Source: Candidatus Aenigmatarchaeota archaeon (GTDB lineage: Archaea; Aenigmatarchaeota; Aenigmatarchaeia; JACPZZ01). Taken from it: 38,573 nt of DNA. The position numbers were made by a program, and so were the translations under genes. The notes beneath the pieces were generated by a model. It did not search any database. It saw only the letters and a program-made list of their open reading frames with translations, and was not told the origin of the DNA. The stretch lies in the NCBI GenBank assembly GCA_016195275.1, contig JACPZZ010000027.1:1-38573 (forward strand), given 5' to 3'. Positions 4,103 to 21,837 of this stretch are shown in pieces; position 1 is the stretch's first letter; each line of letters starts with the position of its first letter.

Positions 4103-4891
4103 TCATGCAAAATACGCGACCATGTTCTTGAATAACTTTATCCCGTCCGGCTCCATATCATCAACGCCGGCGCCCATTTCTCTCTTCATTCTTGTGTAAT
4201 GCGGGTGGTTTGTCATGTGGTTGAACGCTTCGAAATGCGGCATTGTCCCGAATATCCTGCCGGTCTTGTCGCATATGCCTGCTATCGCATCGACAGACCC
4301 GTTCGGGTTTTCCGGGAATTGGGCAGCAACATCCCCGTGGCGGTTGACATATTGCATGACAACCTGGCCGTTTGCATGCAATCTTTGCAACGCTTCCGGG
4401 CTGGCGGTCACAAATTTTCCTTCTCCATGCCTGACCGGAAGGTAAAGGCCGTCCAAACCTTTTGTGAAAACGCATCTTGAATTAGGGTTTACTTTTAAAC
4501 GGACCCAGTTGTCATAGAAAAATCCCGCGTCGTTGCTGGTCAATGTTGCGTCTATTTGTGAATCTTCGTTGTTGAATACGCCCAACTTGGCTGCTATCTG
4601 AAAGCCGTTGCAGACATCGTAGATTAGTGTGTCTCTCGCATAGAATTCATGCAATTCTTCATCCAATTTGCCAAGCCTTTTTGCAGTCGCGACGCCCGCT
4701 CCAAGATCGTCGCCGTCAGAAAACCCGCCGCATATCGCAAGTATCTGGCAGTCCCTGAGGGTAACATCGCGGTCTAACAGCTCGTAGATCGTGGCTATTC
4801 TTGTGCGCGCCCCTGATTTACGTAATGAATAGTCAAGTTCTTTTTCCGTGTTCAACCCGTTGCCTGTTAATATCAAAGCTTTCGGTTCCAT
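4103..4891 (-). CDS. purQ: Phosphoribosylformylglycinamidine synthase, glutaminase subunit PurQ
   Basis: Class I glutamine amidotransferase subunit supplying ammonia to PurL in the fourth step of purine synthesis. The start is the ATG at 4891 (MEPKALILTGNGLN), overlapping the purL TGA by one base as TGATG, a sign of coupled translation; an upstream in-frame start would add nine residues inside purL. Visible motifs are CGGFSDGDD in the N-terminal part, the nucleophile elbow YDVCNGFQ, and MPHFEAFNH where the catalytic His is expected (more usual is PHPER). About 262 residues, a little longer than small bacterial PurQ (~225) and like forms that pair with PurSL. Confidence 0.92.
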   Translation of the reverse strand: MEPKALILTGNGLNTEKELDYSLRKSGARTRIATIYELLDRDVTLRDCQILAICGGFSDGDDLGAGVATAKRLGKLDEELHEFYARDTLIYDVCNGFQIAAKLGVFNNEDSQIDATLTSNDAGFFYDNWVRLKVNPNSRCVFTKGLDGLYLPVRHGEGKFVTASPEALQRLHANGQVVMQYVNRHGDVAAQFPENPNGSVDAIAGICDKTGRIFGTMPHFEAFNHMTNHPHYTRMKREMGAGVDDMEPDGIKLFKNMVAYFA

Positions 4892-7875
4892 CAGTTCCAC
4901 CCAAACCTGCTTTGCCACGCATCCTTTAGCCCGTAAATGCTTGCGGTTATGACTGTGCGCCCGTCCAAACCGCGCACGTAGAAACTGTCGCCGGCTCTAA
5001 CATTTCCGACACGTGCATATTGTACGGAACCCATCGTTTTTTCAAATTCGTCAGCTTTCGCAGGGTCCACAGTAACGACAAACCTGCTTGCGGATTCGGA
5101 GAACAGCGCCTTGTAATTTTTATCAACGTCTTGAGTGGGAAGTTTTGAAAGGTTCACATCCATGCCGTAACCGCCGGCAAATGCCGTTTCAGCAAGTGCA
5201 ACACCCAAACCGCCTTGTGAAGCATCGTGTATCGATGCGGCCAGACCGTGTTTTGTTGCTTCAGCCAAAGATTTGTACAAAACTTTCGCAGACTTGGCGT
5301 CAACAACAGGAACGCTGTCCCCGACTGCTCCGCGAGACGTGTAAAATTCAGAACCGCCCATTTCGTCTTTTGTAACGCCCAAAACATATACGATATCACC
5401 GGGCATTTTAGCATCCATTGAAACAAAATTCCTGGCATCGTCCATTTTGGCCATCGCAGACATCATAACCGTTGGCAATCCAGATACCTTTTGCTTGTTG
5501 CCTTCCTGATCTGTGTATTCGGTATCTATGGTCATGCTGTCCTTTCCGGAAATGCAGGGCGTTTCATATTCGAGGCAATAATTGCGCAAAGCCATGTTCG
5601 CCCGAACCAGTTGGGCCATCTTATGTTTGTCTTCGAGCGGGGAGGGCCAGCAAAAATTGTCATTGAAAACAATCCGTTCCATATCGCCGCCGACTGCTAT
5701 AACACCTCTGATAGCCTCGTCAATTGCGTTTGCGGTCATGTGGTATGTGTCTATTTGTCCATATAACGGGTTTATCCCGTGCGAAAGTATTATGCCTTCG
5801 TTTGAATCCAGGAACGGTCTTAGTACCGCAGCATCCGCAGGCCCATCATTTTGCGCGCCGACAAACGGTTTGCCTGCGCTACCGCCCTGCACTTCGTGAT
5901 CAAATCGCCTTACCATCTTTTCCTTGCTAGCTATATTCGGCCTTGCCAGTATTCTGGTCAATTCTGCTGTAAGGTCTGAATCATCTGCAATTATCGGATC
6001 GTCGTTGTGTAATATTCTTTGCCATTCAGCTTCCAGTTCCATTTTAGGGACGCCGTTATGCAGGAATTCCATGTCCAAATGGGCAACCACATCGCTGCCG
6101 TAAGTAGCATGTAATTTTCCGCTGTCCGTAAATTTACCGACAACCGATGATTCTACGCGGTATTTTCTTGAAAGCTCTTCAAACTCCGTTATTTTTTCCG
6201 GCTTGACAGCAGCGGTCATCCTTTCCTGGGACTCTGAAATTAAAATTTCCCATGGCTGCATGCCTGCGTATTTCAACGGAACGCGGTCAAGGTATATTTC
6301 GCAGCCGCCAGAGATCTGCGCAAGCTCGCCTATCGACGACGACAAACCGCCTGCGCCATTGTCTGTTATCGCTTCGATTAAGCCAAGATCCCGCGCCCTG
6401 ATCAAAAAATCGTACGCGCGTTTCTGCACAATCGGGTCGCCTATCTGAACTGCCGAAGAAGGCGATTTTTCATGCAGCGTTCCTGAGGAAAATGTAGCTC
6501 CGTGTATGCCATCTTTTCCAACGCGCCCGCCGACCATGACAGCAAGATAACCCGGTTCGATGACTTTTTCTTCTGTTTTTCTGCCGTTGATTTCAGCTGG
6601 CATCACGCCTACGGATCCGCAAAAAACAAGCGGCTTTCCCAAAAAACTGTCGTGGAAAAACACTGAACCGTTTACAGTAGGTATTCCTGTTTTGTTTCCC
6701 GCATGTTCTATGCCTTTGAAAACGCCTTTTCTCACGCGGTCCGGATGCAATATTGTTGACGGTAAATAACCTGCGTAATCCGGATCAGCAAAGCACAATA
6801 CATCAGTAGACGCAATTAATTCCGCTCCGACGCCCGCGCCCATAATATCGCGATGGCAGCCATTGACCCCGGTCAAAGCGCCGCCGTACGGATCCTTCGC
6901 GCTCGGGCTGTTGTGCGTTTCGACCTTCATCAGCATGTTCCACATGTTGTTGAACTTGACGATACCGGCGTTGTCCTTGAATACGGAAACTAGTTTGTCT
7001 TTCCATTTATCAGTTTTTGCAAGCTCCTCTGTTGCGTCTTTAATGAAAGTTTTGAAAAGGCTGTCAATATCAATAGTTAGACCCGTCTCCCTGTCCACAT
7101 AGTGCACGGCCGCATTGAAAATCTTGTGTTTGCAGTGTTCGCTCCATGTTTGCGCCAACACTTCCAATTCCACGTCAGTAGGCATCGGACCAAGGCCGAA
7201 CGTTTCCCTTTCCTGTACAAAGCTAGGCCTTTGGTACTCGCTGCCTATGGTCCGCATTTCCCGAAGGTTTAACGAAAGCTCGCCCTTTCCGCTTATTTCC
7301 ATAAGCGCGTTATCATCGACACCCAGATTAACATATCCTGCTCTCAACCCGTTGCCTGCAACCATTTTTGGTACAGTGTGCAGTCCTGTTCTCCTGTCCC
7401 ACGTGCGGTAATCATAGACCCGCATATCCTCAATGAGCGGGTTGGCAAGCATTGCAACAGCCGCTTTTTTTAATTCTTCTTCTGTCCCGCCCTTGACAAA
7501 ATATTGCGCTGATGTGTAGGCGCTTCCTTCCCCCACGCCTCTGTCTAGAATTGTTTCTGCAATTTCTTTTGCAGTCCGGCCCTGCGGGTCGGCGACGCCC
7601 GGTTTTTTTGAAACTTCGACCATGAAATCAAAATCGCCGGGGCTGATTTGTTCGTTTATCGCAGAAAATTCTGTTACAGGGTCTGTAAGTTCGGTTTCTA
7701 ATCGTTTTATGTCGTCCTCGGACAAAGGAAAATCAAAAGTTATTTTTCTGGCGGTGCGCACGTTTTGTGTTTTTATCCCGCGTTCGGTGAAATCCTGTTT
7801 TACAGCAGCGGCCGAAGCGTCCGGGAACTCCGGTTTGACGGCAACCTGTAACGTGTTCGGTTTAGTATCAGCCAT
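4891..7875 (-). CDS. purL: Phosphoribosylformylglycinamidine synthase PurSL (PurS-like regions fused to PurL)
   Basis: Synthetase subunit that makes FGAM from FGAR, ATP and PurQ-derived ammonia. About 994 residues from the ATG at 7875; a TTG three codons upstream is also in frame. The first ~170 residues hold two PurS-like segments (LQVAVKPEF..., then FDFMVEVSKKPGVADPQGRTAKEI...). The PurL core follows: LAQTWSEHCKHK, KVETHNSPS, GGALTGVNG, ITDNGAGGLSSSIGEL, ISESQERM, and in the second half GGDMERIVFNDNF, CISGKDSM and SIHDASQGGLGVALAE. Separate purS is therefore unnecessary, while PurQ is still encoded next door. The promoter would lie in the 7876-7942 gap, which it shares with the divergent purN fragment. 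Confidence 0.93.
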   Translation of the reverse strand: MADTKPNTLQVAVKPEFPDASAAAVKQDFTERGIKTQNVRTARKITFDFPLSEDDIKRLETELTDPVTEFSAINEQISPGDFDFMVEVSKKPGVADPQGRTAKEIAETILDRGVGEGSAYTSAQYFVKGGTEEELKKAAVAMLANPLIEDMRVYDYRTWDRRTGLHTVPKMVAGNGLRAGYVNLGVDDNALMEISGKGELSLNLREMRTIGSEYQRPSFVQERETFGLGPMPTDVELEVLAQTWSEHCKHKIFNAAVHYVDRETGLTIDIDSLFKTFIKDATEELAKTDKWKDKLVSVFKDNAGIVKFNNMWNMLMKVETHNSPSAKDPYGGALTGVNGCHRDIMGAGVGAELIASTDVLCFADPDYAGYLPSTILHPDRVRKGVFKGIEHAGNKTGIPTVNGSVFFHDSFLGKPLVFCGSVGVMPAEINGRKTEEKVIEPGYLAVMVGGRVGKDGIHGATFSSGTLHEKSPSSAVQIGDPIVQKRAYDFLIRARDLGLIEAITDNGAGGLSSSIGELAQISGGCEIYLDRVPLKYAGMQPWEILISESQERMTAAVKPEKITEFEELSRKYRVESSVVGKFTDSGKLHATYGSDVVAHLDMEFLHNGVPKMELEAEWQRILHNDDPIIADDSDLTAELTRILARPNIASKEKMVRRFDHEVQGGSAGKPFVGAQNDGPADAAVLRPFLDSNEGIILSHGINPLYGQIDTYHMTANAIDEAIRGVIAVGGDMERIVFNDNFCWPSPLEDKHKMAQLVRANMALRNYCLEYETPCISGKDSMTIDTEYTDQEGNKQKVSGLPTVMMSAMAKMDDARNFVSMDAKMPGDIVYVLGVTKDEMGGSEFYTSRGAVGDSVPVVDAKSAKVLYKSLAEATKHGLAASIHDASQGGLGVALAETAFAGGYGMDVNLSKLPTQDVDKNYKALFSESASRFVVTVDPAKADEFEKTMGSVQYARVGNVRAGDSFYVRGLDGRTVITASIYGLKDAWQSRFGWN

Positions 7876-7942
7876 GAAGCTCAACTATAATAAATTTGTA
7901 AGCAATTTAAGCCTTAACAGCTTATTTCTTTTACGTGCAAGC

Positions 7943-13932: not shown

Positions 13933-14142
13933 ATGAAAAACCTCGTAATGATAGGCGTTGAACGGGAAACGCTTGATAGGCTGAAGAAGCTGAAAGAGGA
14001 AGAGAACGCGAAAAACATGGACGAGATAATAAGGAAGCTGATAGAAAAAGGGACCATGAAATCCATGTTCGGCGTAGACAGGGGGATAAAGAAACTGACG
14101 CAAAAGGAGCACGAAGAAATGACGAGAGATGCGCATGGATGA
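13933..14142 (+). CDS. vapB: VapB-type antitoxin
   Basis: A 69-residue basic/acidic protein with an N-terminal beta strand (NLVMIGVERETLDRLKKLKEEE) and two helices (MDEIIRKLIEKG), the plan of a ribbon-helix-helix DNA-binding antitoxin. It overlaps the next gene, a PIN toxin, by 14 bases. A/T-rich repeats TTATAAATTATAAATT just upstream contain the likely TATA box and possibly the operator for autoregulation. The C-terminal part would wrap the toxin. Confidence 0.75.
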   Translation: MKNLVMIGVERETLDRLKKLKEEENAKNMDEIIRKLIEKGTMKSMFGVDRGIKKLTQKEHEEMTRDAHG

Positions 14143-14527
14143 CCCGAAAGCCGTCCTCGATTCTTTCGCGTGGTTTGAGTATTTCTGCGGCTCCGGAAAG
14201 GGCATGTCGATAAAGGAAACAGTGGAATCAGGCGGTTCTGTCACGCCTTCTATAGTTGTCGCAGAACTGACTGAAAAGTACAGGAGAATCGGGAAAGACT
14301 TTGCCAAGAACCTGGCCTTCATCAGACTGAAAAGCAATATCATTGCGCTTGATGAGGAAATAGCAAGAGCAGCTGGCGAGATAAATTTTGAGAGGAAGAA
14401 GAAAGTCCGGAATTGGGGGATGGCTGATTCAATAATACTCGCCACTGCAAGGTCTGTAAATGGCATCGTAATAACAGGCGACGAGCATTTTAAGGATCTG
14501 AAAAGCGAGGTAAGGATGTTGAAATGA
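14129..14527 (+). CDS. vapC: VapC-type PIN-domain toxin
   Basis: PIN-domain ribonuclease of about 130-132 residues. The acidic residues expected in the active site are visible: D in AVLDSFAWFEYF (the opening Asp), E in VVAELTEKY, D in WGMADSIILATA and D in VITGDEHF. The start can be ATG 14129 or ATG 14135; both overlap vapB. These enzymes cut tRNA or rRNA when the antitoxin is lost. The pair lies directly upstream of smc with 68 bases between. Confidence 0.85.
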   Translation: MRMDDPKAVLDSFAWFEYFCGSGKGMSIKETVESGGSVTPSIVVAELTEKYRRIGKDFAKNLAFIRLKSNIIALDEEIARAAGEINFERKKKVRNWGMADSIILATARSVNGIVITGDEHFKDLKSEVRMLK

Positions 14528-14595: not shown

Positions 14596-17500
14596 ATGAC
14601 TTACATACAACGCCTCGTTATGCAGGGCTTCAAGAGCTTTAACAAAAAAATAGCCATACCTTTCTCCCAGACGTTCAGCGTCGTATGCGGCCCGAACGGA
14701 TCGGGGAAATGCCTCCACCCACACTCTAAAGTCGTTTTGGCTAACGGTAAGCTAGTGGAAATAGGCCCGTTCGTGGAAGAAGAGTTGGAAAAGTCCGCCT
14801 ATGTAAAGAAGCTGGATGATGGGTTTATTTGCCCCAACTATAGTGGAATCGAAGTTTTTACCATAAGATCCGACATGAAGTTGGAAAAGACCAGGCCGTC
14901 CGCCTTCATAAAAAGAAAATCTCCCAGAAAATTATTGAGAATAAAAACCCAAAGCGGTAGAGAAGTTGTTGCGACAAAATACCATCCGTTGTTTACTTTC
15001 TCGAATGGTAGGATGAACAGCCTCAAAGCGGAAGAACTGAAAGTGGGCCTAAAGATAGCGACCCCTAGGGTATTGGACACAAAACCGAACAACAATCTCG
15101 ATTTGTCGAGTTTCACCGAAAGTGATGAGGTTCGGGCGTCAATAACACCGGAACTCGACGAAGAGGTTAGATGGATAATTCATTCCTCCGGCCTCACCCA
15201 CGCGGAGTTCGGCGAAAGGTATGGAGTACCATACAATTCAATAAAAGGGTTTTTGGAAGGCCAACCTATGAAAATGGGTGAGATGGCAAGAACCTTGGCC
15301 GCAGGCTGCTCTGAGACGCCTGTTCGCGCAACATATTCTCATCAGAGGTTAATGAAAATACCCACTGTAATCAGCGAAGGAATATCCAGGTTCTTGGGTT
15401 ACATAATATCCGAGGGCAGTTCCACCTCTGCAAATCATGTTCGGTTCGTCAATGAGGACAATGGGATGGCCATAGATTTCTGCGATATATCGAAAATGGA
15501 ATTCGGGTTGGATGCAAACGTTTTCAATTATAAACCTCACGCTAAGGATGTAATTGTGTTTTCAAAACCGCTCCAAGTCTATCTTGAAAAAGTATTCCAA
15601 TTTAAACGCGGTTCCAAATCCGCGGAAAAGGTTGTTCCGTCAGCGGTCATGACAGCCGAAAACGGAATAGTGGCGAGTTTCCTTGGAGGATTGTTCGACG
15701 GCGATGGATATCTGCATGCATGTAAAATGAAAAATAAAAACCACGTTTATTTCGAATACGCGACTGCGAGCAAAGAGCTAGCGAAAGGAGTTCAAACGCT
15801 GCTTCTCAGATTGGGGATAATCTCTACGATAAAAGAAAAACTGAAAAAAGCCACCAATTCCGAAATGCAGAAAAAAAGATATTATTCGTTGTATGTGTAC
15901 GGTGGAATGACCAAAAAATTAGTCGAAAAAATAGCTTTCAGAAACAAGAAAAAAATCGAAACAAGCCGCAAGATCATGAATTTGAATTTGCCCACAAACC
16001 CCAATATGGATTTGATACCCGGTTTGAACGGGGTAGTAAAAGAATTCCTTAAGTCGGCTGGGATCAGCATAAAAAAGATAAGGAAAGAGTACCCGAAAGT
16101 CGCTGCGTATTACGAGAACAGGTGCGAATGCAGTGCGGGAGGCCTACAAGAAGTGCTGGAAGTTGTGAAAAAATATGGAAATCCGGATTATGACAAGATT
16201 CTCGGCGACGTACTACAGCAAGCATCGTCTTCTGACATATTTTGGGACAAGATAATTGAATTGGAGGAGATGGATTCCGATACAGAATGGGTATATGATC
16301 TTTCTGTGGAGGGAACACATAATTTTGTAGCCGAAAATATAGTTGTTCACAACAGCAACATCAACGACGCCATCTGTTTCGTTCTAGGCCGCACCTCGGC
16401 CAAGTCGATGCGCGCAGAGCGTTTGCACGAACTAATATTCCATGGCGGAAAGGGCAAAGAACCTGCGGAAATAGCATCTGTTACACTATATTTGGATAAT
16501 TCGAAAAAGGAATTTCCCTTCGAGCAGGACTTTATCACCGTGACGAGAAAAGTTAACAAAAACGGGGCGACCGTTTACAAGCTCAACGATGAAACGGTGA
16601 CGCGCCAGCAGGTTTTGGACACATTGGCCGCAGCCAGAATCTTCCCGGACGGCTACAACATCGTTCTTCAGGGGGATGTAACGCAAATCATAGAGATGGA
16701 CCCGCTTGAAAGGCGCGCCGTTATCGATGAAATAGCCGGCATAAAGGAGTACGATGAAAAGAAGGCGAAATCTGAAAAGGAGTTTGAAAAGGTTGAGCAG
16801 AAATTAAAAGAGGTCGGCGTTGTTCTGAAAGAGCGCGACGAAACATACAAAAAACTGCAGGAAGAGCGCGACGCTGCGCTGAAATACCAGAGTATGACAA
16901 ACGAACTGAAAAAGCTGCGCGCATCCATTGCAAACAAAAGATTAACGCAATCGGAGCAATCGTTCTCATCGTTAACAAGCGAGGTTGAGGCAAAGGAAAA
17001 AGCTGCCGAGGAGATGAGCGCGAAGCTCACAGAACTGGACACAGACATAGATAAAAAGGAGCAGGAACTTGAGCTTTTAATGAAAACTCTCTTCGAACGT
17101 TCCAAAAAAATCAAGATCGTGCGTGATGTCGAAGAACTTCGTGCAAAAATCCTGCGGATCAATGATAAGATTGAATACGACAAACGCGAACTTTCGCGTT
17201 TAGACATGATAATATCCCGCCTTGAAGGCATAAGCGGAGATCAGGAATCGCGTTCTGTTACCGAAGTGCTGAAACTGGGCAAGCCGGGCGTTTATGGAAC
17301 AATCGCTTCTTTATTGCGCGTCCAACCCCAATACCAGACAGCCATTGAGGTTGCCGCAGGCCCGCATATCAACGACCTTATTGTTGATAACGAAGCCACG
17401 GCCATCGAGTGCGTTAATTTTCTTAAGAACAACAAAATCGGCCGCGCAACATTCCTGCCGCTGAATAAAATACAGGATCGCCTGACTTCGTTGTCGCACT

Positions 17501-18723
17501 CTGACACGGCCAAAGCGGTGGGCTGGGCAAACGATCTTATCGAATACGACCGTAAGTATGAGATTGCTTTCAAATTCGTTTTCGGCAGCACGCTGGTCGT
17601 CAAGGACATAGAAACCTCGCGCTCAATCGGGATAGGCAAAACGCGCATGGTCACGCTCGACGGCGATTTAGTTGAAAGGTCAGGCGCGATCATCGGCGGT
17701 TTTTACCGCAAAAAACAGAAGGCCATGTTTGACACAAAGGACATCGAAGAATACAAGTCTACTATGGAGGCTTTGCGTACAGAAATCGAAACGCTTACAA
17801 AGCAGTCAAAGGAATTGGGCAAGGATCTGGAAGCGAAAACGGAACTGGAACGTTCAGAGGCGTCGGATTTCGTGGAAAGCGAGAAAAAAAGAAATTCTTT
17901 GCAGCGCGAATCCGAGGCTTTAAAGCGCCAGAGAAAAACCGTTTTCCAGGAGCGTGTCAACCTTCAATCCGAATTGAACAAGATCAAGCTGCAGCGCGCC
18001 CGCATAGAAGTAGAGCGCGACAACACAAAATCCGAATTTTCGCAGTACGCAACCGAAAAGGAGTTTTATGACCTGCCGTTGGAGGAGATGGAATCCAAGG
18101 TGCGTTTGTTTGTGCGTGAGATAGATTCGTTGGGACCTGTCAATATGAAGGCGATAGACGAGTTTGAAAACTTCCGTGACGAGTTTGAGCAGCTTAGAAC
18201 GCGCTATGAAGAGGTCATAAAGGAGCGCGATTCGATCATGGCAATGATCGAACAGATAGAATCAAGGAAAAAAGACACTTTCACCAAGACATTCGAAGCC
18301 ATCGCTGCCAATTTCAAGCTTATTTTCAAGGAGATGGCCCACGGGGACGGGGAAATATCACTGGAAGAAAACGACAACATTTACTCCGGTTTGGTAATAC
18401 GCGCATCGCCGCACGGGAAAAAATTATTGAGCATTGATTCGATGTCCGGTGGGGAGAAAACGCTGACAGCAATGGCGTTTTTGTTCGCTATACAAAATTA
18501 CAAGCCCGCGCCTTTTTACATATTCGATGAGATCGACGCAGCGCTGGATAAGGCCAATTCGAAGAAAATAGGAGAAATGATGCAGCGTTTTTCCAAAAAC
18601 GCGCAGTTTATCCTGATAACGCACAACGACACAACGATACGGATGGCCGACCAGGTTTACGGCGTTTCGATGGACCAGGGAGAATCCAAGATAATCTCGG
18701 TCAGCCTTCCGCCGGAGGAATAA
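14596..18723 (+). CDS. smc: Chromosome partition protein SMC, with intein in the P-loop and short arms
   Basis: Condensin ATPase of 1375 codons, of which 548 belong to an intein inserted after GPNGSGK. The spliced product would have 827 residues. N-terminal head: QGFKSFNKK, P-loop GPNGSGK-SN, Q-loop NIVLQGDVTQI. The hinge lies around codons 896-1030 (PGVYGTIASLLRV, VDNEATAIECVNFL, GAIIGGFY). C-terminal head: MSGGEKTLTAMAFLFAI signature, YIFDEIDAALD Walker B, ILITHN. Each coiled-coil arm is only about 180-220 residues, against roughly 330 in the SMCs I know (total about 1170-1190). Both arms are shortened by a similar amount, so this looks like a real short-armed form and not a one-sided deletion. 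scpA follows 49 bases downstream. Confidence 0.94.
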   Translation: MTYIQRLVMQGFKSFNKKIAIPFSQTFSVVCGPNGSGKCLHPHSKVVLANGKLVEIGPFVEEELEKSAYVKKLDDGFICPNYSGIEVFTIRSDMKLEKTRPSAFIKRKSPRKLLRIKTQSGREVVATKYHPLFTFSNGRMNSLKAEELKVGLKIATPRVLDTKPNNNLDLSSFTESDEVRASITPELDEEVRWIIHSSGLTHAEFGERYGVPYNSIKGFLEGQPMKMGEMARTLAAGCSETPVRATYSHQRLMKIPTVISEGISRFLGYIISEGSSTSANHVRFVNEDNGMAIDFCDISKMEFGLDANVFNYKPHAKDVIVFSKPLQVYLEKVFQFKRGSKSAEKVVPSAVMTAENGIVASFLGGLFDGDGYLHACKMKNKNHVYFEYATASKELAKGVQTLLLRLGIISTIKEKLKKATNSEMQKKRYYSLYVYGGMTKKLVEKIAFRNKKKIETSRKIMNLNLPTNPNMDLIPGLNGVVKEFLKSAGISIKKIRKEYPKVAAYYENRCECSAGGLQEVLEVVKKYGNPDYDKILGDVLQQASSSDIFWDKIIELEEMDSDTEWVYDLSVEGTHNFVAENIVVHNSNINDAICFVLGRTSAKSMRAERLHELIFHGGKGKEPAEIASVTLYLDNSKKEFPFEQDFITVTRKVNKNGATVYKLNDETVTRQQVLDTLAAARIFPDGYNIVLQGDVTQIIEMDPLERRAVIDEIAGIKEYDEKKAKSEKEFEKVEQKLKEVGVVLKERDETYKKLQEERDAALKYQSMTNELKKLRASIANKRLTQSEQSFSSLTSEVEAKEKAAEEMSAKLTELDTDIDKKEQELELLMKTLFERSKKIKIVRDVEELRAKILRINDKIEYDKRELSRLDMIISRLEGISGDQESRSVTEVLKLGKPGVYGTIASLLRVQPQYQTAIEVAAGPHINDLIVDNEATAIECVNFLKNNKIGRATFLPLNKIQDRLTSLSHSDTAKAVGWANDLIEYDRKYEIAFKFVFGSTLVVKDIETSRSIGIGKTRMVTLDGDLVERSGAIIGGFYRKKQKAMFDTKDIEEYKSTMEALRTEIETLTKQSKELGKDLEAKTELERSEASDFVESEKKRNSLQRESEALKRQRKTVFQERVNLQSELNKIKLQRARIEVERDNTKSEFSQYATEKEFYDLPLEEMESKVRLFVREIDSLGPVNMKAIDEFENFRDEFEQLRTRYEEVIKERDSIMAMIEQIESRKKDTFTKTFEAIAANFKLIFKEMAHGDGEISLEENDNIYSGLVIRASPHGKKLLSIDSMSGGEKTLTAMAFLFAIQNYKPAPFYIFDEIDAALDKANSKKIGEMMQRFSKNAQFILITHNDTTIRMADQVYGVSMDQGESKIISVSLPPEE
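14710..16353 (+). mobile_element. Intein with LAGLIDADG homing endonuclease, in the SMC Walker A motif
   Basis: A 548-residue insertion that starts with Cys (CLHPHSKVVLANGKL, block A) exactly after GPNGSGK and ends VHN before Ser-Asn of the SMC P-loop (block G: His-Asn, then Ser as the downstream nucleophile). Block B is ATKYHPLFT with the TxxH pattern at about intein residue 89-92. Block F is YDLSVEGTHNFVAENIV. Two LAGLIDADG-type motifs, FLGYIISEG (codon ~266) and FLGGLFDGDG (codon ~362), are 96 residues apart, so the DOD endonuclease appears complete. A GERYGVPYNSIKGFLEG segment may be a helix-turn-helix. Splicing is needed to rebuild the ATP-binding loop. Confidence 0.93.
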
Positions 18724-18772: not shown

Positions 18773-19480
18773 ATGGAAATGCAAACTGAAGAAAAGATTT
18801 TGAACCTGGTTGTCCGCGACCATTCGTGGGAGCAGATAATTTTTCATCTTATCGAATCTGAAAATCTTGATCCGAATGACGTGGATCTGGAAAGACTTGC
18901 CAACGCTTTCGTTGACTACATTAACAAGCTGGAAGAGCTGGATTTCCACATACCCGCAAAAATGATAATCATCGCAGCCGTCCTGTTGCGGATGAAATCG
19001 GACAAGCTTGGATTTGAAAAGGAGCTGGTCATGCCGGAAGTTGCGGAAAAACCCGCGCCGATAGACAAAATAGATACGCTGCCGTTAAATGTGCCATTGA
19101 AACGGCAACCGAAAAGAAAAGTTTCTGTTCAGGAACTTATCGAAGCATTGCGACGTATGGTGGAAACAAAGGAAAAGAAAGAACGCAGATTTTTGCGAAT
19201 GCAGGAAAGGATAGAAATAACCGAGGACGACATAACCGAGAAGATCGACAAGCTGTATTCCAAGATCGCTTGGGTTCTGGACCGGTTGTACGGGGAACCG
19301 CTGCCGTTCACAAAACTGGTCGGGGAATGGAAGCGAAAGAACGTGGTCAGAAACTTCGTGCCGTTGCTTCAGCTTGCGCACCAGGGCAAACTGGACATAG
19401 AGCAGGAAGACTGGTTCAAGGAAATACTGATTAGCAGGCGAACTAAGAGATTTGATGATACGGACGAGGAAACCTCTTAA
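18773..19480 (+). CDS. scpA: Segregation and condensation protein A
   Basis: The kleisin subunit that bridges SMC heads. It has 235 residues. The N-terminal WEQIIFHLIESENLDPNDVDLE helix-turn region and the helical IPAKMIIIAAVLLRMKSDKL segment bind the SMC neck; a charged linker (KRQPKRKVSVQELIEAL) follows; the C-terminal winged-helix end closes with FVPLLQLAHQGKLDIEQEDW and FKEILISRR. It is co-directional with smc at short distance. The last 25 codons and a stretch past the stop are repeated, in diverged form, at 21284-21383. No scpB is seen in the window. Confidence 0.92.
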   Translation: MEMQTEEKILNLVVRDHSWEQIIFHLIESENLDPNDVDLERLANAFVDYINKLEELDFHIPAKMIIIAAVLLRMKSDKLGFEKELVMPEVAEKPAPIDKIDTLPLNVPLKRQPKRKVSVQELIEALRRMVETKEKKERRFLRMQERIEITEDDITEKIDKLYSKIAWVLDRLYGEPLPFTKLVGEWKRKNVVRNFVPLLQLAHQGKLDIEQEDWFKEILISRRTKRFDDTDEETS

Positions 19481-19558: not shown

Positions 19559-19753
19559 ATGACAAACGAAACCATGATTTTGAAGAAATTGGAAGATATG
19601 GAAAAGGACATCAAAGAGATAAAAAGGAAAATGGTTGACAAGGATAGCGTTATGACAGAAGATGATTATTCAGCGTTACTGGAGTACAGGAAAGAAAAGG
19701 GAAGCGGAAAGCTTTTTCCCCATGAACATGTCAAAAAAGAGCTAGGTTTATGA
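19559..19753 (+). CDS. Small antitoxin of a RelE-type pair
   Basis: A 64-residue charged protein starting MTNETMILKKLEDMEKDIKEIKRKM, a coiled-coil-like helix, with a C-terminal FPHEHVKKELGL. The ending (helix closing in K-x-E/L-G-L) is common in archaeal RelB-like antitoxins. Its stop overlaps the toxin start by four bases (ATGA), so the pair is translationally coupled. Confidence 0.7.
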   Translation: MTNETMILKKLEDMEKDIKEIKRKMVDKDSVMTEDDYSALLEYRKEKGSGKLFPHEHVKKELGL

Positions 19754-20010
19754 TTTTTGTAGCGGAGTATTCCAACCAAGCTTTGAAATTATTGAAGCAG
19801 GCTGACAAAATTTTAGCAAAGAGGGTGATCGCTAAAGTGGAGTTGTTGCTCAAAGAGCCGGTTGGACATGATGCAAAAATAATGGAAGGTTACAAGGAAA
19901 AACTGTATCGCGTAAGAGTAGGGGATTACAGGATTCTGTACGAGGTGGACTACGGGAATAAAAAGATCGGCGTTGTTAAAATTGATCATAGATCTAAGGT
20001 TTATCGATGA
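19750..20010 (+). CDS. relE: RelE/ParE-family toxin
   Basis: An 86-residue protein with the family pattern: an N-terminal MIFVAEYSNQALKLLKQADK helix pair, the KIMEGYKEKLYRVRVGDYRILYEV strand core with the Arg residues that contact RNA in RelE toxins, and a C-terminal VVKIDHRSKVYR. It is complete and normal in length. RelE toxins cut mRNA in the ribosome A site. It is coupled to the antitoxin gene just upstream and is one of several toxin genes between the scpA tail copies. Confidence 0.88.
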   Translation: MIFVAEYSNQALKLLKQADKILAKRVIAKVELLLKEPVGHDAKIMEGYKEKLYRVRVGDYRILYEVDYGNKKIGVVKIDHRSKVYR

Positions 20011-21401: not shown

Positions 21402-21628
21402 TTATTTCTTCAGCAGCTTGAACAGCGCTTCTCTTGTTAATCCCGCCTGCTTGAGAATGGAATTTAATGTACCTATTGCAAGTTCTGGGTGATTCGGCAC
21501 GTTATTCGCATATACGGGTATACGACTCTTCTCAAGATCATATGACTACCGGTCATGTGGTCAATTTCAAAACCAACCTTAATAAGAACTTTTACAAGCT
21601 CCCTGCCTGCGATTATCGGGAGTCTCAT
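21402..21628 (-). pseudogene. hicA: HicA toxin with a one-base frameshift
   Basis: The frame starts at ATG 21628, overlapping the hicB stop as ATGA, and reads MRLPIIAGRELVKVLIKVGF...HMTGSHMILRR, the normal HicA double-stranded RNA-binding-like fold with the GSH catalytic His. Near 21515-21527 the frame must shift by one base to continue RIPVYANNVPNHPELAIG, then SILKQAGLTREALFKLLKK and TAA at 21402-21404. Without the shift the protein goes off family after codon ~35. So the toxin is broken, or the shift is a sequence error. Confidence 0.78.
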
Positions 21629-21837
21629 ACGCTTATCTCGGATATTTGTAAAACATCCTTTACAGGTATCTCTTCATTGTGTTTCTTGAGACTTTTCAAA
21701 TAACCGTTTATTGCGTCTCTGATATTTTTCATCGCCTCTGCTTCTGTTTTACCTTGAGAAATGCAGCCCGGCAAATTCACACATTCCACTACATAAAATC
21801 CGCTCTCATCCTTGGATACAATTATCTTGAATTTCAT
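21625..21837 (-). CDS. hicB: HicB antitoxin
   Basis: A 70-residue intact HicB: MKFKIIVSKDESGFYVVECV, the LPGCISQGKTEAEAMKNIRDAI core and a short C-terminal tail, without a separate DNA-binding domain. HicB binds and inhibits HicA. It overlaps the frameshifted hicA by four bases and precedes it, an order seen in part of the family. Confidence 0.9.
   Translation of the reverse strand: MKFKIIVSKDESGFYVVECVNLPGCISQGKTEAEAMKNIRDAINGYLKSLKKHNEEIPVKDVLQISEISV

Follow-up and report, generated by a model that had tools for sequence, protein, structure and literature searches.

INTRODUCTION

According to the main text of Bürmann et al. 2017 (PMC5344682), the arms of natural prokaryotic Smc proteins fall into three modes, 238, 341 and 515 residues long, and perhaps two minor ones (163 and 423), and resized Bacillus subtilis Smc was functional only in windows that repeat with ~91 residues, the shortest reported being 253–267 residues. 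Models of the SMC motor differ in the role they give to arm length: it may determine how large a DNA segment is captured, how long the step is, or only a permitted phase of the coiled coil. No description of a short-armed Smc in DPANN or Aenigmatarchaeota was found in the open-access literature, where the nearest report deals with actinobacterial SMC variants that lack the hinge, which is another matter (PMC12153180). Here we analyze the smc gene carried by a 38,573-nucleotide stretch of DNA from a Candidatus Aenigmatarchaeota archaeon (contig JACPZZ010000027.1 of assembly GCA_016195275.1; the whole stretch is hereafter the window). Its product is very probably a natural mini-Smc serving as ATPase in an Smc-ScpA(-ScpB) condensin; each arm strand has ~165–177 residues (~25 nm), where ~340 (~50 nm) would be usual.

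RESULTS

An Smc with half-length arms

The open reading frame (ORF) at 14596–18723 on the forward strand has 1375 codons' worth of residues and represents a complete Smc interrupted by a 548-residue intein in the Walker A loop, inserted between GPNGSGK and SN; Pfam assigns SMC_N, SMC_hinge, Intein_splicing and LAGLIDADG to it. Removing the intein in silico leaves an 827-residue Smc with Walker A, LQGD, SGGEK, DEIDAALD and a full SMC hinge. Both head halves, the N-terminal with Walker A and the C-terminal with the signature motif and Walker B, are present under Pfam SMC_N with motifs invariant in close relatives, and the hinge dimerization domain PF06470 matches at E 5.4e-33. These motif positions and Pfam matches agree with the original prediction, made from the letters alone, of an 827-residue protein retaining all head motifs and the hinge; its interval, 16354–18723, holds the Smc downstream of the intein, and the first 38 residues lie upstream of it (Table 1).

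Arm lengths were determined on 138 Smc ORFs as spans between conserved anchors (for the N strand, QGD of the Q-loop and the start of the hinge; for the C strand, the GG at the end of the hinge and GPVN), some of them repeat fetches of one gene. The window Smc gave 209 and 145 residues, compared with 386 and 317 in a full-length Clostridia Smc and with 347–392 and 283–328 in 48 long Smcs, so that its deficits are 177 (N) and 172 (C) residues against the Clostridia protein, or 169 and 163 against the median of the long Smcs. The hinge kept its length (134 versus a median of 133.5), as did the joint, measured from GPVN to SGGE (104 versus 104–110); therefore, only the part of the arm that runs from joint to hinge is affected by the loss. 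Within the coils, short Smcs match long ones in ambiguous, overlapping profile alignments, and the lost block is placeable only as lying between joint and hinge because coils match one another promiscuously.

The arm strands show a coiled-coil-like hydrophobic period of 3.45–3.5 residues, which head and hinge do not. In an AlphaFold model, a weak one built on six sequences (predicted local distance difference test, pLDDT, 66.7; predicted template modeling score, pTM, 0.36), they form helices of 161 and ~161 residues, corresponding to ~24–25 nm at 0.15 nm per residue. The matched deficits, this periodicity, the predicted helices and the covariation of the strands across families described below point to antiparallel arms with matched strands. 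Thus, the claim that both coiled-coil arms are about half length is borne out by the measured deficits, and the loss turned out symmetric and even better matched than first proposed, namely ~180 residues out and ~200–220 back: the shortening does lie in the coils, but the longer return figure includes joint and neck, the modeled helices being of equal length. An arm of ~165–177 residues departs from the ~340 that is typical of, though not strictly defining for, a prokaryotic Smc; membership in that family stands, other natural modes being known.

The short protein is a chromosomal Smc

A length closer to that of Rad50 or ASRP-type proteins, together with weak matches to the ASRP, Rad50 and RecN models, might suggest a specialized SMC-like protein with shorter coils (Rad50, RecN, coalescin-type or defense SMC) rather than the chromosomal Smc. 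The family models speak otherwise: an intein-free ortholog in L036 (L036:5887–8367), 91% identical to the window Smc and likewise exactly 827 residues long, scored 764.5 bits against the NCBI SMC_prok_A equivalog, above the cut-off of 729.4, and the ASRP, Rad50 and RecN models scored far under theirs, on which ground these families were rejected. The top PDB match of the protein is a prokaryotic Smc (E 2.5e-116), the closest solved chains being prokaryotic Smc heads. Its SMC hinge (E 5e-33) is the only SMC_hinge match across the draft source genome, a separate Rad50-like gene is encoded at G000:C12, and scpA follows smc immediately. An SMC-like protein of another kind is accordingly very improbable.

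The short form is fixed in the phylum

The source genome is a draft of 1.07 Mb, 83% complete in 34 contigs, of which the window is contig 31, and its closest named relatives are groundwater metagenome-assembled genomes of Candidatus Aenigmatarchaeota. A draft of this kind invites the suspicion that the short form stems from faulty assembly, from a deletion within the gene or from gene decay. A survey of the phylum detected an Smc match in 143 of 156 genomes; intact intein-free frames spanned 773–911 residues, and every intact SMC was short. Longer frames, up to 1386 residues, match from query residue 36–38, as expected from an intein at the same place. Short SMCs of the same length were found in four genomes of the same genus at 88–91% identity, and in roughly 30 additional families of this phylum at 37–50%; the motifs of the window Smc and the flanking ScpA are intact. 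Full-length arms at the same locus in close relatives, which would have spoken for such an artefact, were not encountered in this survey, and the 156 genomes leave it a vanishingly small probability.

In G002, a genome of the same genus, there is another short Smc besides (G002:C59:147–2540, 42% identical), which is probably contamination (5% listed).

Two arm-length classes without intermediates

For the other archaea, the hinge was searched for in 391 genomes, after which frame lengths were obtained for 77 of these and sequences for 80. Sequences were picked by frame length, with all short-looking ones encountered taken and the long ones sampled; the class proportions therefore carry no meaning and only the gap counts. 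The mean strand length had family medians of 160.8–182.5 residues in the short class (33 group labels, 11 of them families outside the phylum) and 315–358 in the long class (40 labels, 39 being archaeal families), with no intermediate strand length among the sampled families, nor any sampled archaeal Smc at the major mode of 238 residues. Six ORFs of apparently intermediate size, in G201 (987 residues), G326 (921), G244 (751), G396 (724), G355 (840) and G170 (1089), proved to be contig-end cuts or two-frame splits whose remaining arm spans are long. Three others, in G192 (935), G301 (899) and G395 (954), are short-armed despite their longer open frames. The lengths of the two strands, N and C, are correlated across families (rho 0.63 in the short and 0.81 in the long class, kinship ignored), in agreement with an antiparallel coil, which requires matched strands.

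The best explanation is that the short arm is an old and stable trait of Aenigmatarchaeota and related archaeal lineages. What is new here is the owners of the short form, its clade-wide fixation and the empty gap.

One origin or several

In trees built on the Smc heads plus hinge, Aenigmatarchaeota and seven other short families formed one supported clade of 61 rows, with a Shimodaira–Hasegawa-like approximate likelihood ratio (SH-aLRT) of 99 in a quick tree and 97/98 in a reduced careful one; families f42 and f58 made up a second short group, and f46 and f127 a third, far off. That the bacterial outgroup and most archaea have long arms suggests that the short state is derived. Three changes of arm length fit the tree best, and a single change sufficed in none of 200 bootstrap trees. 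Under the approximately unbiased (AU) test, nevertheless, a single clade holding every short row was not rejected (p 0.42), so that convergent shortening is no more than possible.

Repeated shortening to the same permitted length, with arm length quantized by the coiled-coil superhelix as in the Bürmann model, is compatible with a working mini-Smc and may be entertained as a minority explanation. The three short groups and the bootstrap trees fit it, as do the clustering of all short families at 161–183 residues without intermediates and the ~91-residue repeat of functional windows in Bacillus, as reported in the main text of that study. Against it stand the AU result, the divergence of the f46 and f127 rows, the emptiness of the 238-residue mode among the sampled archaeal Smcs, and the deficit of 166–175 residues, which equals 1.8–1.9 times 91 or 1.7–1.8 times 99, no clean multiple of either. 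That half-length arms arose at least twice in archaea at the same length, since only discrete lengths let the ATP cycle drive DNA, is put forward a shade more tentatively still. If true, the natural series of ~340 and ~170 would be an evolutionary confirmation of quantized SMC arms and would extend the functional arm range below the engineered 253 residues.

The third, distant short-armed group comprises L099, L098 and L083, in genomes of 1.1–1.9 Mb. Family f46 gave no Pfam ScpA match, though ScpB lies near smc, and no match to archaeal AmoA or to MCR was obtained in the three genomes. A lone MCR match came from G470, which is listed as 6% contaminated.

Genome reduction in small cells could also have shortened the arm in passing, with no mechanical tuning behind it, as most short-arm genomes measure 0.5–1.4 Mb. 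Many genomes of 0.6–1.2 Mb keep full-length arms, however (e.g. in f130, f112, f116, f37 and f96), and short arms occur also in genomes of 1.6 and 1.9 Mb (G190 and G395), which makes this explanation unlikely.

Partner genes and the putative short-armed condensin

The scpA gene starts 49 bp downstream of smc, its product matching Pfam SMC_ScpA (2e-12) and Rad21_Rec8, and scpB is located on another contig of the source genome (G000:C1:44500–44937, E 2e-32). Among the short-arm genomes checked, ScpB matched in all 54 and ScpA in 51, and both genes directly adjoin smc in several (e.g. G005, G012, G024, G103 and G171). The presence of these genes, several beside smc, argues for a predicted Smc-ScpAB-type complex in the short-arm lineages.

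Taken with the symmetric loss and the conservation in the phylum and 11 further families, the partner genes support the original proposal of a working short-armed condensin with matched loss; most likely, as far as gene content and protein sequence can tell, this is an Smc-ScpAB-type condensin with ~25 nm arms, not ~50 nm. The intein would splice itself out to release the 827-residue Smc, two copies of which would dimerize at the hinge while ScpA bridges the heads. The ATP cycle would then drive the opening and closing of a ring that has ~25 nm rods and reaches half as far as usual, and DNA would be captured or extruded in shorter segments per cycle, by about half if segment capture scales with arm length.

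Three points weigh against this reading. Arms of ~170 residues fall outside the tested functional range, engineered Bacillus Smc reaching down to 253 residues in the main text of PMC5344682, so that function is inferred from conservation. ScpB may stand outside the complex, because several tested archaeal ScpA-ScpB pairs showed no binding (Jeon et al. 2020, PMC7055376). Finally, the structure model is weak, as its scores and shallow alignment given above indicate.

The smc locus and its surroundings

The features of the locus are compiled in Table 1. The Walker A site is occupied by an intein not only in the window but also in L015, L038, L120 and L125, in short- and long-arm archaeal Smcs alike; the inteins start with Cys in the window and L120, and apparently with Ser in L038 and L125. 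Their patchy presence inside one genus suggests that the smc intein is mobile. The remaining rows list other ORFs of the window, including candidate toxin–antitoxin pairs, recognized by sequence alone, immediately upstream of smc and downstream of scpA.

Table 1. Coordinates of the smc–scpA locus and other ORFs in the window; residue numbers of the Smc parts refer to the 827-residue protein
Feature	Position	Strand	Details
SMC N-extein	14596–14709	+	residues 1–38; start of N-terminal head, as far as Walker A GPNGSGK
Intein	14710–16353	+	548 residues; LAGLIDADG homing-endonuclease type (Pfam); first residue Cys, last HN; splits GSGK from SN
Remainder of N-terminal head	16354–16740	+	residues 39–167; Q-loop LQGD at 143–146
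Short-arm N strand	16741–17223	+	residues 168–328; predicted 161-residue helix with two short breaks; proline-free; hydrophobic period 3.45
Hinge domain	17284–17625	+	residues ~349–462 (Pfam); conserved GG at 486–487
Short-arm C strand	17734–18219	+	residues ~499–660; hydrophobic period 3.5
Helices and joint of the C strand	inside 17734–18219	+	predicted helix 499–601; break with GPVN at 632–635 (joint); helix from 638
C-terminal head	18259–18720	+	residues ~674–827; signature SGGEK 736–740; Walker B with DEIDAALD at 763
ScpA kleisin	18773–19480	+	235 residues; N-terminal ScpA domain and C-terminal Rad21/Rec8-type winged helix
PurL-like ORF	4891–7884	-	997 residues; N-terminal part (87–155) matches PurS weakly; possible PurS-PurL fusion
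ORF beside the PurL-like ORF	4103–4918		
Small overlapping ORF pair upstream of smc	13933–14527	+	antitoxin-like, then PIN-domain (VapC-like) toxin-like
Small overlapping ORF pair downstream of scpA	19559–20010	+	RelB/RelE-type toxin–antitoxin-like
HicB-like ORF	21625–21837	-	

DISCUSSION

The short Smc is genuine and stable, and it is informative. As a half-length Smc that occurs stably in nature, comes with an ScpA and ScpB of its own and has full-length archaeal relatives, it would make the role of arm length measurable without engineered truncations, and the smaller protein of ~827 residues may ease full-length structural work.

The short form was partly foreseen, such lengths having been glimpsed as the possible minor mode of 163 residues in Bürmann et al. 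2017 (PMC5344682). By anchors, the window arm measures 177 residues (long mode ~343), and scaling by the Clostridia difference to the 344 of B. subtilis Smc gives ~168–170, bearing in mind that the domain boundaries of those authors may differ; the scaled value is close to the tentative mode and to 344 minus two periods (162). The range of ~165–177 residues likewise lies near that mode, for which the main text names no organisms or clade, whereas here the short arm is assigned to a phylum plus 11 other archaeal families and separated by an empty gap. The engineered B. subtilis Mini-Smc of the same study resembles the window protein in combining shortened arms with native heads and hinge, but its shortest functional arm, as reported there, has 253 residues, and the natural one is ~80 residues shorter still and evolutionarily stable. 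Eukaryotic Smc5/6 (mode 272 residues in that source) also has arms shorter than those of cohesin and condensin, yet it is a eukaryotic heterodimer and its shortening is less extreme. With the canonical Smc of the bacterial and archaeal Smc-ScpAB condensin (B. subtilis, Pyrococcus), the window protein shares the heads, Q-loop, signature motif, Walker B, hinge, joint length and ScpA neighbor, and its ortholog in L036 is 34% identical to the full-length Clostridia Smc; it differs in arm strands ~165–175 residues shorter each and in the Walker A intein, and is thus a variant of a known machine, not a new one.

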